DNA of 35,479 nt, taken from assembly GCA_020201525.1 (NCBI GenBank), contig JAIVGO010000107.1, positions 1 through 35,479 on the forward strand, written 5' to 3'. Position 1 is the stretch's first letter, and the number at the start of each line of letters is the position of its first letter. Source of the stretch: Actinomycetota bacterium (lineage in GTDB: Bacteria; Actinomycetota; AC-67). A program made the position numbers and the translations under genes. The notes under the pieces are model-generated. The model was not told where the DNA came from. It ran no database searches and worked only from the letters and a program-made list of their open reading frames with translations. Of the stretch, positions 5,381-34,863 are shown piece by piece.

Positions 5381-6154
5381 TCAGCGCGGACCCACGACAA
5401 GACTTTGCGTCGCCCCACCGAAGCGACCGCGAACATCCCACAAAGTACTTTGAGCCACCCCCACGCCGTCCGGATCGATGAGGGAGTGGGCGTCCAAGCA
5501 AACCCACTCCCCCTCGGGCATGCGCGTAAAGTGAGCCGTCAATTCGACGTTGATGAACAAGTGCGTTCGAAAGTCGAGAACGGAACTGATGCCGTTGCCA
5601 CTGTCCGCTGCGACAAGAACTCGGGTCAGAGGTGATGGCTCTTCGCCGGCAACGAGTGGTTTGCGCATCCGCATCCAGACGGCCGCGGGACCCGGATCGA
5701 AAAAGACGCCGCGGGCGAACCGCCATTCCATCGCACGAAAGTAACTCGTCTCAGCCGGGTCGGGGACGGGCGCTGTTTCGCTTTCGTTCGGGCCCGGCAA
5801 GGAAGTCGGTCCCGCAGTAACTTCAGGCGCCGAGCCGGGCACGGCCCGAATGCGCCATGCGGAGGCACGAGCAACTTCACTGCCCTCATCCGTCATCGAC
5901 GCAGTGACGAATTCGACGCGTCGTCCGGGCCGGTCGATTTTGGCTGCAATGCGCAGAGGTTTGATGGGAATCGCGCGCAAGATCTCAATGGTGAAGCGCG
6001 CCACCCGCATCCCTTTGGTGCCGATGCTTTCTATGCTTCGCGCAAGAAGCGCGGCCGGCGGGCCCGCGTGTTGCGAGCCGGGATCCCACGGGCCGCGCGT
6101 CCATGCAGTTGGAATGTACCGGTCCCCCTCGGCTACATAGAACGCGTCTTCCAT
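5381..6154 (-). CDS. acyl-CoA thioesterase-like double-hotdog protein
   Basis: A 257-residue protein of the thioesterase family with two hotdog folds (4HBT_3/TesB-like). The first half has WTRGPWDPGSQHAGPPAALLAR (about 18-39), the signature of the central hotdog helix. It is followed by RFTIEILRAIPIKPLRIAAK, typical beta strands. The second hotdog contains LVAADSGNGISSVLDF, where the Asp-Ser-Gly-Asn region corresponds to the family's active-site helix. Known role: hydrolysis of acyl-CoA thioesters. The true substrate cannot be told. It ends 7 bases from the convergent anti-sigma gene. The short gap to the small upstream gene on the same strand (30 bases) suggests cotranscription. Confidence 0.82.
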   Translation of the reverse strand: MEDAFYVAEGDRYIPTAWTRGPWDPGSQHAGPPAALLARSIESIGTKGMRVARFTIEILRAIPIKPLRIAAKIDRPGRRVEFVTASMTDEGSEVARASAWRIRAVPGSAPEVTAGPTSLPGPNESETAPVPDPAETSYFRAMEWRFARGVFFDPGPAAVWMRMRKPLVAGEEPSPLTRVLVAADSGNGISSVLDFRTHLFINVELTAHFTRMPEGEWVCLDAHSLIDPDGVGVAQSTLWDVRGRFGGATQSLVVGPR

Positions 6155-29240: not shown

Positions 29241-30315
29241 TCAGCGACCGAAATATGAGCCGCCGTCGGACCAGGACGAGGCGATGAGTGCGTCGTAGGC
29301 GAGCGGCCACGGCGGGCGCAGGAATCCGAGCGCCCGCACATCTTCGAACCAGAAGCCGAACGGCGAGTGACGTGCGAAGGTGCCGCCGCCCATGATGCGA
29401 ACGATTCGTCGAAGGCATTCCTCGGCAAGATGTGCGCACGCGGTTTTGCCGAGTAACACAGCACGGAGCGGCGATGGATCGTCTTCCACGGCTCGAAGCA
29501 TTCCCTCGTAGGCCTGCCGCATGAGCCACGCTTCCTGTTCGGCGTTCGCCCACTCGACTTCTTCGTATGGCCGCAACGTATCCTTCCGTTTGGCGAGCTG
29601 TTCCGATGCCGTCTCCATCGCTGCTTCAACGATGCCGAGGATGACAGCGGTGAACAGCGATCCCACGAATCGCAGCCATCCCGTGACCGTCCCACGGTGC
29701 CGTCAGGGTGACCCCGCGGGAACCGTCCCACGGAACGCCGCGCATATCGAGATAGAACCAGTCCGGCTCGTCCTCGCCTTCTGGGCGACCGCTCGTCAGC
29801 ATGAAGCTCGTGATGCCACTGCCGCTGCCGAAATGCTTCTGTCCGGACAGGAGCCAGGTGCCGTCGGGACCTCCGGGCTTCGCGACGGCCTTCGTGCCGG
29901 AGACATCACCGCCGCTTCCCGGCTCCGACGTAATCGTGCCGAACTGCGCGCCTTCGAGGGTCACTTTCGCAAGGTAGGAGCGTTGTTCGGCCCACGCCTG
30001 TGCGTGCGGCTCCGGCGCGGACGGCGTTGCGAGCCAGAACGCGAGAACGGCGGGATGCATCGAGGAAACCAGAGCAAGCGATGAGTCGCCCTTCGCAAGC
30101 GCGCGCAGGATTTCCGCGATGGGCCGCGTCGAGCGCGGCACGCTCTCGAACAAACCGTCATGTTCGATGGGAACGCCTGTTAACAGGTAGCCGGTCTTGT
30201 GCAATTCGGCGAAGTCCGACGGGTCTAGCTCACGCCGCCGCTGCCGATCGTGGCGGTCGGCGGCAAACGTCGCGGCAATTATCTTGACATCCTCGAGTAG
30301 CCCCGCTGCGTCCAC
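29241..30315 (-). pseudogene. acyl-CoA dehydrogenase family gene, frameshifted with an internal deletion
   Basis: Two open frames on the minus strand make one gene. The 5' part (GTG at 30315 with GGAGGACGGC upstream, to about 29680) has SSMHPAVLAFW, FGTITSEPGSGGD (the flavin-contacting TSEPGxGSD-type motif), WLLSGQKHFGSGSG and GVTLTAPWDGHGMAA. The 3' part (about 29680 to 29241) is in another frame. It opens with FVGSLFTAVILGIVEAAMETA and continues to RIVRIMGGGTF and LRPPWPLAYDAL. At the junction the family's segment after GMAAT (SHAxRxxG...) is missing, so there is a deletion and not just one base. The product cannot be made as a single protein. Assembly error is the alternative. Confidence 0.75.
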
Positions 30316-30999: not shown

Positions 31000-33900
31000 T
31001 TAGGTGGGATCGCCGACGGGGGAAAAGGAATCGAAGCTGTTGCGACTTTCCGGTAATGGCACCTGCGGCGCTCGTTCCACGCCGAGCCGTGCGAGGATGC
31101 GCGCTGCTTCGGCGCGAGACTGTTTTCCGGGTCCAGATGCGGGACCGCGGAGCAGTGCGAGCGCTTGGTGGGTCAGCGCCATTTCGTATTGAGCTTTCGC
31201 CGCCGTCCCAATGCGCAAGCTTTCTTCGAGCGACGCTGCCGCAGCGGCGCGGTCGCCGACCTGCAGCAGCGCGTACCCCCTGGCGCGGTGAAGCATCGCC
31301 TGCAAGGCAGGCATTCCACGGATGCGTTCGGTCGCGACGAGCGTTTCCTCGATGATCGATAGCGCATCATCGGGACGGGCCGCCAGTACGTACGCTTCTG
31401 CGATCCGCGCACGGGCTTCGGCGATCCAGCTTTCCGCTTTGATCTCGGTGAATCTCGCGAGCGCACTCTCGAGAAGTGCTTGTGCTTCATCCTGGCGTCC
31501 TGCTCGCGCGGCTGCGCGCCCGAGATTGATCTCGGAAAGCGCAATGCCGTACGGTGAACGAGCGGCCCGATAGCTTGCGAGCGATTCTGCGAACGTAGCC
31601 TGCGCATCGTCGAGCCGCCCTTGATCCGACAGGATCTCTCCGATGTTGTTGAGTGCATCCGCGACACCGATGACATCACCGATTTGTTCCAGCACTTCCT
31701 TAGCGCGACTATTCACGTCCAGCGCGTGGTCCCACTCACCGGCGAAGTACGCGTCGACGCCGAGGTTGATCAAGGTGTTCGCCTGACCCAGCAAGTCGCC
31801 CAACTCTTCGTAGATCGGCAATGCGAGATCGCGATAGTCGGCGCGGCGTTCGTCGCCCAACCATGTGTACGCGGTGTGGACGAGGTAATAGATGTGCGCC
31901 AGCGCCGACCGCAAGTTGAGACGACGCGCCTGCGGCAACGCGCGCTCGCACATCGCAATGCATTTCCGGTACCGGCCCTGGTGAAAGAGAACGCCGGCGT
32001 ACGCGATGAGAAGCTCGACGCGCTCGTGATCGGCGTCCACACCGGCTTTCTTCAAGCCGCGAGAAAACCACGTGAGCGCTCGAGAATACTGCCCAGACAA
32101 TCGGCATACGACACCCTCTTTGCGGAGCAATCGCGGAAGATCTGATTCGAGAGCAGTCAGCTTGCGAGCGTTGCGATACGCCTCTGAGGCTTGCGCGTAC
32201 ATTGCTGCTTGAGTGCTGACATCGCCGAGGCGCTCATGCACGCCGGCGACGTCGACGGGTGAGATTCCCAGCAATCGGCGTGCCGAATCGAGCGCACGAC
32301 GATAAAACTCCACCGCTTGAACGTTGGCGAACTTTGCGTGCGCACGGTCTCCTGCGACTACCGAGTATTGCCACGATTTGTCGAAACGCTGTGCTTTGTG
32401 GAAGTGCAAGGACAAGATTTCCGCGACCTCTTCCCCGGATTCCCTTTCAAGAGCAGAGCCGATACGGTCGTGGATTTCGCGCCTTCGACCGAACGGCAAG
32501 GCTTCATATGCGACGTCGCGGAACAGCATGTGTCGAAAGCGGAATGTGTTGGGGCCGTTCGGTTCGAGGAACTCGGCGAGCCGGTTCCACGACGCGCGCT
32601 CGACGACGTCCGGGAATCGGTCCGAAGCCACGCTGTTCAACAATTCGAGAGAGAACTGGGCTCCGATAACGGCGGCGTACCGAAGCAATGTTCGATCCGC
32701 CGGTTCGAGGCGGTCTAGCCGCGTCGTGATCACGGCTTCTACCGTGTCCGGTAGAGATTCGACGCTACCTCCTGCGCGCGACTCCGACACGAGCTCCTGA
32801 AGAAACAGCGGATGGCCGCCGCCTCGGGCCGCGAGCGCCGCGAGCTCGTGTGCCGCTAAGTCCAGTCCTCGGCTGGCCTCCTTGACGAGTGCCGCCGCCG
32901 CCCCCCCCGGAAGTGGCGACAGCACGAGTATTGTCGATTTGCGGTCGCTCGGAAGCAGCAACGTCCTGCCTTCGAGGCGCGAAGTGACGCACACGAGCCA
33001 CCATCGTGCAGGCAATCCGAGAACGAGCGAGCGCAAGAGTTCGTTCGAGGCTTCGTCGAGCCAGTGAGCGTCCTCGATCGCTATCAGAGCCGGGCCATCG
33101 ATGGCGCGCTCCAAAAGGGTCGCAACACTTCGGTGCAGACGCTCACGCTTGAACTTTTCGTCGAGACCGGACGCTTCTCGCGTCTGTGGCACGCCGGCGT
33201 CGACGGGCAAGGCGAGCAGCGGAAGCCACGGCGATAGATCCGGTGCAGTTCGTTCGACGGTTTCGGCCAGGCGACGGCCCGCTTCTTCGCGCGATGCATT
33301 CTGCGCGAGGCCGAGCACCGAACGCAGAAGGCGCCGGAACGCGAAATACGGCGTCGAGGATTCGTATTGCTCCGCAACGACATGTACGACTCGTGCGTCA
33401 CCGGCGTTCGCGAGCAACTCTTCCAGCAGCCGCGACTTTCCGATGCCGGCATCCCCCACGATTTCGCACAGGCCTCCGGTGCCACGTTTTGCTTCATCGA
33501 GCGCGTCGAGCAGCACTTCCAATTCAGTCTCGCGCCCGAGGAGCGGAAGATGCTGAGCGTCTTTCGATTGTCGAGATCCACAAATCGATCCGACCGCGAA
33601 AGCGGTTACCGGGTGTGCCTTCCCCTTGACGGCAAAAGCCGCCAGCTCTCGCGTGTCGAAGAGCGTCCGAGACCGGTCTAGCACCGAAGGCGTCGATAGA
33701 ATCTGTCCCGTTTCTGCGCGCGCCATGACCCGAGCCGCGAGATTCACTGCGTCGCCCATGATCGTGTAGGTCCGGCGATAGTACGGGCCGACGTCCCCGG
33801 CAAAGACATGACCGCGATTCACGCCGATGCGTATCGAAATCGCAGGCTTCGCGTCCATGATCGCGCGGACGGCGCGCAGCATTTGCTCCTCGTCGTGGCC

Positions 33901-34863
33901 CGTCCCAACAGGTGTGCCGGCGGCGAGAATGATCTTCCCGCCGTCGTGGTCCACGTCGGTGGCGAGGAATGTGACGTCATGCTCCGCGGCTGCGCGTTGC
34001 GCGGTCCTAACGAGCTCGTGCAATTGCTGCGTTACCTCCGAGCATCCAGCCTTTTGGACGAGCTCGTCCGATCCGTCGAAGTGAACGAACGCAATCGTGA
34101 CCTGCCGGTGCTCGGGCTCGAGCGGACCTTCTGCGAGCCGCTCGCGGATCGCCGGTGGGATGAATTGTGCTGGGTCGACCTGTGACGCCGGCGCCGGTTC
34201 ACGTGCATCGACTTTCGGCGCCGGCGGCATCCGAGCCAGGAGCACACCTCCCCCTTTTTCGCGGCCGAGAAGCGAGGGGTCAACGGTGGCGGCCATTGCC
34301 GGGCTCAGAAGGATCTCGCCCGCTTCGGCGGTCGATTCCATCTCGACGGTCTTGCTTGCCGCCGGTCCGGCGACGATCAGCTCGCGGTGCAGCTCGCCGA
34401 CGAGGAAGAAATGGAAAATACCCGTGTGCACTCCAACAGACATTCGAAGGGTGACGTTGCCGGCCGAGCTCTTGAGGCCTTTGCCGATCTCGGCCAGCTT
34501 CCGCCGCATGCCCGCAGCCGCGTAGACCGCGCGCGCGGCGTGACCCTCGCCGCGGTAAAACACCAGCAGCGCATCGCCGCCGAATTTGAGCAATGAGCCG
34601 CCGTTTTCATAGGCGACGGCGAGAAGCCTGGTAAAGGTCGAGCTCATTATCTCAGTGACTTCTTCCGCGCCGACCTTTCCTTTCTCCGCCAGCCGCTCGG
34701 ACATTTTCGTAAATCCGGAAATGTCCACGAAGACCAAGCTGCCGTCCATCTCGCGGTACGAGGGGCCCTCGGAGGCGGGCCACTCCAGCAACATCCTGGG
34801 GAAATAGGCCGTCATCGCAGAAGGGGGCAGTGCGCCGAGCGCTGCGCCATTTTCTACGTTCAT
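31000..34863 (-). CDS. tandem adenylate/guanylate cyclase - AAA ATPase - TPR protein
   Basis: A 1287-residue protein; ATG at 34863 with GGGGGCC nearby. Class III cyclase domain 1 (about 40-190) has both metal Asp positions: FVDISGFT (Asp47) and FGGDALLVF (Asp97). The transition-state Asn/Arg positions are Ser170 and Glu174. Domain 2 (about 253-425) has YTIMGDAVNLAARV with Asn374 and Arg378, but the metal positions are His261 and Lys310. A P-loop ATPase follows: Walker A GDAGIGKS (470-477) and Walker B LIAIEDAHW (593-601). The last 400 residues are TPR-like helices. The order cyclase-cyclase-ATPase-TPR is that of soluble adenylyl cyclase. It is cytosolic and likely makes cAMP, but the substrate could be GTP. 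Confidence 0.9.
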   Translation of the reverse strand: MNVENGAALGALPPSAMTAYFPRMLLEWPASEGPSYREMDGSLVFVDISGFTKMSERLAEKGKVGAEEVTEIMSSTFTRLLAVAYENGGSLLKFGGDALLVFYRGEGHAARAVYAAAGMRRKLAEIGKGLKSSAGNVTLRMSVGVHTGIFHFFLVGELHRELIVAGPAASKTVEMESTAEAGEILLSPAMAATVDPSLLGREKGGGVLLARMPPAPKVDAREPAPASQVDPAQFIPPAIRERLAEGPLEPEHRQVTIAFVHFDGSDELVQKAGCSEVTQQLHELVRTAQRAAAEHDVTFLATDVDHDGGKIILAAGTPVGTGHDEEQMLRAVRAIMDAKPAISIRIGVNRGHVFAGDVGPYYRRTYTIMGDAVNLAARVMARAETGQILSTPSVLDRSRTLFDTRELAAFAVKGKAHPVTAFAVGSICGSRQSKDAQHLPLLGRETELEVLLDALDEAKRGTGGLCEIVGDAGIGKSRLLEELLANAGDARVVHVVAEQYESSTPYFAFRRLLRSVLGLAQNASREEAGRRLAETVERTAPDLSPWLPLLALPVDAGVPQTREASGLDEKFKRERLHRSVATLLERAIDGPALIAIEDAHWLDEASNELLRSLVLGLPARWWLVCVTSRLEGRTLLLPSDRKSTILVLSPLPGGAAAALVKEASRGLDLAAHELAALAARGGGHPLFLQELVSESRAGGSVESLPDTVEAVITTRLDRLEPADRTLLRYAAVIGAQFSLELLNSVASDRFPDVVERASWNRLAEFLEPNGPNTFRFRHMLFRDVAYEALPFGRRREIHDRIGSALERESGEEVAEILSLHFHKAQRFDKSWQYSVVAGDRAHAKFANVQAVEFYRRALDSARRLLGISPVDVAGVHERLGDVSTQAAMYAQASEAYRNARKLTALESDLPRLLRKEGVVCRLSGQYSRALTWFSRGLKKAGVDADHERVELLIAYAGVLFHQGRYRKCIAMCERALPQARRLNLRSALAHIYYLVHTAYTWLGDERRADYRDLALPIYEELGDLLGQANTLINLGVDAYFAGEWDHALDVNSRAKEVLEQIGDVIGVADALNNIGEILSDQGRLDDAQATFAESLASYRAARSPYGIALSEINLGRAAARAGRQDEAQALLESALARFTEIKAESWIAEARARIAEAYVLAARPDDALSIIEETLVATERIRGMPALQAMLHRARGYALLQVGDRAAAAASLEESLRIGTAAKAQYEMALTHQALALLRGPASGPGKQSRAEAARILARLGVERAPQVPLPESRNSFDSFSPVGDPT

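Follow-up and report, generated by a model that had tools for sequence, protein, structure and literature searches.

The gene described here lies on the minus strand of a window of 35,479 nucleotides (the whole stretch of DNA that was analysed) from an Actinomycetota bacterium. It very probably encodes a bacterial enzyme of the soluble adenylyl cyclase (sAC) type with one composite active site, a dead second site, control by a STAND ATPase and TPR repeats, and a cyclic nucleotide as product. The N-terminus carries two class III cyclase domains in tandem in one chain (C1 and C2, found by Pfam as two Guanylate_cyc stretches), and C2 is followed by a P-loop STAND ATPase and then by TPR repeats, according to Pfam and the fold. 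AAA_16 was matched at residues 441-616 and TPR repeats up to about residue 1139. The open reading frame (34863..31000) starts with ATG, and an in-frame TTG is located 27 bases upstream of it. The gene and its domains are as follows:

31000..34863, minus strand: whole gene, 1287 aa, C1-C2-STAND ATPase-TPR (open reading frame and translation; Pfam)
34228..34752, minus strand: cyclase domain C1, residues ~38-212 (profile, alignment, AlphaFold model)
33571..34125, minus strand: cyclase domain C2, residues ~247-431 (Pfam 251-420; AlphaFold model)
33016..33543, minus strand: AAA_16 / STAND ATPase core, residues 441-616 (Pfam; Foldseek)
31084..32493, minus strand: helical TPR array, residues ~791-1260 (Pfam TPR; in the model, helices from ~791)

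A chance open reading frame is ruled out by a paralogue in the same genome (see below) and by full-length homologues elsewhere. The TOMM kinase/cyclase fusion family (TIGR03903) was rejected, the query scoring 183.5 bits against a curated cut-off of 705.75. The gene has an RCC1-repeat gene on one side and a small unknown one on the other, with no functional link seen. An acyl-CoA dehydrogenase gene at 29241-30315 of the window (minus strand) is broken over two frames (29629-30315 and 29244-29666) and is either a pseudogene or affected by a sequencing error.

In human sAC, D47 and D99 bind the metals, and N412 and R416 serve catalysis (PMC12867704 table 1, PMC12250328). The corresponding codons of the query are given below, with counts for a family set of 31 sequences (30 tandem homologues and the query):

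34723..34725, minus strand: D47, first metal Asp (human D47); D in 31/31
34573..34575, minus strand: D97, second metal Asp (human D99); D in 31/31
34354..34356, minus strand: S170, transition-state Asn position of C1, lost; N in 0/31
34342..34344, minus strand: E174, transition-state Arg position of C1, lost; R in 4/31, never with N
34081..34083, minus strand: H261, first metal position of C2, lost; D in 1/31
33934..33936, minus strand: K310, lost metal residue (second position of C2, judged by sequence register); D in 0/31
33742..33744, minus strand: N374 (human N412); N in 30/31
33730..33732, minus strand: R378 (human R416); R in 30/31

The query thus confines the metal Asp pair to C1 and the transition-state Asn/Arg pair to C2. 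Translation and alignment agree with the original prediction on all eight residues. For K310, the residue and the loss were borne out, while its place at the metal position is assigned by sequence register alone, since C2, like its counterpart in human sAC, has a longer beta2-beta3 hairpin than C1. The tip of this hairpin reads DHDG, and D307 sits where human sAC has K340 (FDKG loop). Since H261 replaces the first Asp too, domain 2 would be without the usual two-metal site whatever the register of K310. The residue set argues for a single composite site and a dead second one. C1 and C2 would pack head-to-tail in one chain to form a single working site, in which D47 and D97 of C1 would hold two metal ions and N374 and R378 of C2 would stabilise the transition state; the pseudo-symmetric second site would be catalytically dead.

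AlphaFold modelled residues 1-451 with a pLDDT of 90.8 and a pTM of 0.89. A Foldseek search with this model returned human sAC structures for all of the top 24 matches, followed by AC9. The best match, to human sAC, has a TM score of 0.79/0.77 over about 465 columns, with about 22% identity in the fold alignment. The high score across both domains suggests the same head-to-tail pairing as in human sAC; judged by this score, the model does not show the non-pairing arrangement that was looked for.

The tandem homologues (n=30) came from two scans, one over species genomes, the other over 60 relatives. They span five phyla (Actinomycetota, Chloroflexota, Spirochaetota, Bacteroidota and Fermentibacterota), and the nearest named homologue of the query is from Thermoleophilia. 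A match extending from within or before C1 through C2 into the ATPase was present in 9 of the 60 relative genomes, the own genome included. The metal pair of C1 is D/D in every tandem sequence (31/31), and in C2 the Asn and the Arg are each present in 30. Both N and R together were found in none of the 31 C1 domains, and both metal Asp in none of the 31 C2 domains. The single-domain relatives obtained in these searches differ, 22 of 30 carrying all four catalytic residues, so the split belongs to the tandem family; being kept across the tandem homologues, the residue pattern is more than chance. The homologue alignment and the structure prediction, both suggested earlier as checks, therefore speak on the same side as the claim of one composite and one dead site: the split is conserved, a full residue set in both domains occurs in none of the tandem homologues, and the predicted pairing is that of human sAC.

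Several further tandem genes were observed. The own genome contains a second tandem cyclase (L095:7018-10938), which is 50% identical to the query over the whole length and has the same split. In a relative from the same family, two tandem cyclase genes (L092 and L093, contig G001:C85) lie about 12 kb apart in opposite orientation. The open reading frames of L092, L050 and L094 are 1746, 1770 and 1674 aa long, with about 300-500 aa of open frame ahead of C1, which represents either an extra N-terminal part or merely open frame in GC-rich DNA.

Human sAC reads the base with K334 and T405, and its K144 contacts pyrophosphate (PMC12867704 table 1, PMC12250328). Bicarbonate is bound by K95 and R176, both of which are needed (PMC12867704). 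The equivalents in the query are:

34585..34587, minus strand: K93 (human K95, bicarbonate ligand), kept; K in 15/31
34345..34347, minus strand: V173 (human R176, bicarbonate switch), not kept; R in 1/31
33961..33963, minus strand: A301 (human K334, base recognition), lost; K in 3/31
33763..33765, minus strand: T367 (human T405, base recognition), kept; T in 14/31

The mammalian bicarbonate pair is not complete in the query, with K93 present and V173 in place of R176. The single tandem sequence with Arg at the R176 position lacks the K95 equivalent. Activation by bicarbonate through the mammalian switch is not expected from these residues, and the bicarbonate response suggested in the original prediction finds no support in them. 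One residue of the base-recognition pair K334/T405 is kept, and the equivalent of K144 is S142. The changes at K334 and K144 make the substrate choice and the rate of the query less certain, and with those at R176 and K334 neither bicarbonate activation nor ATP specificity is to be assumed.

The product would be a cyclic nucleotide, cAMP being likelier than cGMP. Formation of cGMP, or an unselective composite site in place of an ATP-specific adenylyl cyclase, is rather unlikely, although the query pair A301/T367 is not K/T and the pair varies widely across the tandem family, with K/T in 3/31 only. The C2 domains of L050, L016 and L027 have the guanylyl cyclase-like pairs E/S and E/A, and the substrate may differ within the family, as judged from these residues. 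T367 is retained as in human sAC, and Thr is present in 7 of 8 members of the query clade. The cNMP-binding proteins encoded next to some tandem cyclases cannot separate cAMP from cGMP. Their genes (all PF00027) are:

L013:5110-5901, plus strand: upstream of the tandem gene in a Chloroflexota locus; ends at 5901, with the first possible Met of the tandem gene at 5908, same strand
L012:5022-5810, plus strand: upstream of the tandem gene in a Chloroflexota locus; ends at 5810, with the first possible Met of the tandem gene at 5875, same strand
L026:12352-12789, plus strand: about 2 kb downstream of the tandem gene
L095:10932-11429, minus strand: tail-to-tail with the own-genome paralogue of the query

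These proteins are possible effector partners of the tandem cyclases. A search within the window found no cNMP-binding gene. In the own genome (G000, 3.7 Mb), 24 matches to cyclase domains and 13 to cNMP-binding domains were counted, and this rich repertoire, together with the cNMP-binding neighbours, is consistent with cyclic nucleotide signalling.

A role of the cyclase pair as a degenerate nucleotide sensor without catalysis, controlling the STAND-TPR part, is improbable. The equivalents of K144 and K334 are lost in the query clade, as could be said for such a sensor, but the composite site retains its four residues even though C1-C2 identity drops to 22-31% in distant homologues, and a dead enzyme is not expected to hold on to an exactly complementary residue set.

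The ATPase of the query has both Walker motifs:

33433..33456, minus strand: Walker A, GDAGIGKS, residues 470-477; P-loop G and K invariant or nearly so
33055..33078, minus strand: Walker B, IEDAHWLD, residues 596-603; invariant or almost invariant E and D

Foldseek with residues 431-1287 gave as top match the archaeal STAND-TPR sensor PH0952 (PDB 6mfv), at a low overall TM of 0.29/0.37, followed by Avs3. PH0952 likewise has a STAND ATPase followed by a TPR array, but is without a cyclase. By analogy with STAND proteins, the TPR part may sense a signal and the ATPase may switch the cyclase. The C-terminal STAND ATPase and TPR array would then sense a ligand or partner, and a nucleotide-driven rearrangement would release or restrain the cyclase pair.

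The best sequence match of the query in the PDB is human sAC (ADCY10; 1.6e-18, in two stretches). With a profile built from the 31 sequences, a single match to human sAC spanned both domains (8.5e-73, 249 bits); the next family was CyaB of P. aeruginosa (2.7e-36, 128.6 bits), and transmembrane cyclases scored lower still. Human sAC being the best match in both sequence and fold, and the C1-C2-ATPase-TPR order being recognised by Pfam, the proposed sAC-like layout is supported. Whether the likeness is old or convergent had been left undecided. In a tree of C1, C2 and single domains, human C1 is nested within the C1 domains of bacteria (SH-aLRT 100), and the bacterial C2 group likewise includes human C2 (SH-aLRT 96). 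When the catalytic columns were removed, the C1 group held (99) and the C2 group admitted one single-domain row. The C1 domain profile scored 127.6 bits against human C1 and 33.8 against human C2, and the C2 domain profile 109.6 bits against human C2 and 13.1 against human C1. Since each human domain joins its bacterial counterpart, the layout appears inherited rather than convergent, and common ancestry of the C1-C2 layout with ADCY10 is well supported on these sequence comparisons, though not beyond challenge, because the human rows stand on long branches and transmembrane cyclases were left out of the tree. Convergence through a separate domain duplication in the query lineage, for which the long human branches could be cited, is highly improbable given that the trees with and without catalytic columns and the domain-specific profiles agree.

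PMC6660944 describes bacterial sAC that has a P-loop NTPase domain (citing Roelofs and Van Haastert 2002, Kobayashi 2004), and PMC11006738 a Chloroflexus cyclase activated by bicarbonate. As cited there, reports of bacterial sAC-type enzymes go back to 2002-2004, and the C1-C2 layout of the query is not new. By its sequence, the query is to be placed as a bacterial sAC-type enzyme whose branch has changes at regulatory and base-reading positions. Of more interest is the lack of the bicarbonate Arg in the tandem family at large: in these bacterial relatives of ADCY10 the composite site is almost strictly conserved, and the bicarbonate Arg and the base-reading Lys are mostly absent. Reviews describe bicarbonate sensing as ancient in the sAC family (PMC11006738), animal data point to a recent origin (PMC12867704), and the bacterial set makes this question testable. 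It also opens a test of STAND-TPR control over the cyclase, a question shared with full-length human sAC (PMC12802110). A tentative view, possible though somewhat doubtful, is that the bacterial sAC class is run by its STAND-TPR part instead of the K95/R176 bicarbonate switch, that this switch came late in mammals, and that the base residues have drifted, with some members (perhaps the query) using another nucleotide.

Among known systems, the single-domain cyclase-AAA_16-TPR fusions common in Actinomycetota have the same order, with a match of about 30% to C2-ATPase of the query, but a lone cyclase domain that usually carries the full set of four residues; they are expected to work as homodimers. 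The bacterial sAC-type enzymes of Chloroflexus and others (Kobayashi, Buck and Levin 2004) are, as cited in PMC6660944 and PMC11006738, likewise sAC-like with a P-loop NTPase, and the Chloroflexota homologues collected here have the same C1/C2 split as the query. The Chloroflexus enzyme differs in that it is said to respond to bicarbonate. The comparison with human ADCY10 (PDB 4clf, 4usu and others) covers C1-C2, full-length human sAC being absent among the solved structures. The human enzyme differs from the query at R176/V173, K334/A301, K144/S142 and in the loop (FDKG/DHDG). It is alike in the C1-C2 tandem, the predicted pair fold and the dead second site, in having D47/D99 in C1, N412/R416 in C2 and a longer beta2-beta3 loop in C2, and in the P-loop STAND domain reported for the full-length enzyme (PMC12802110).
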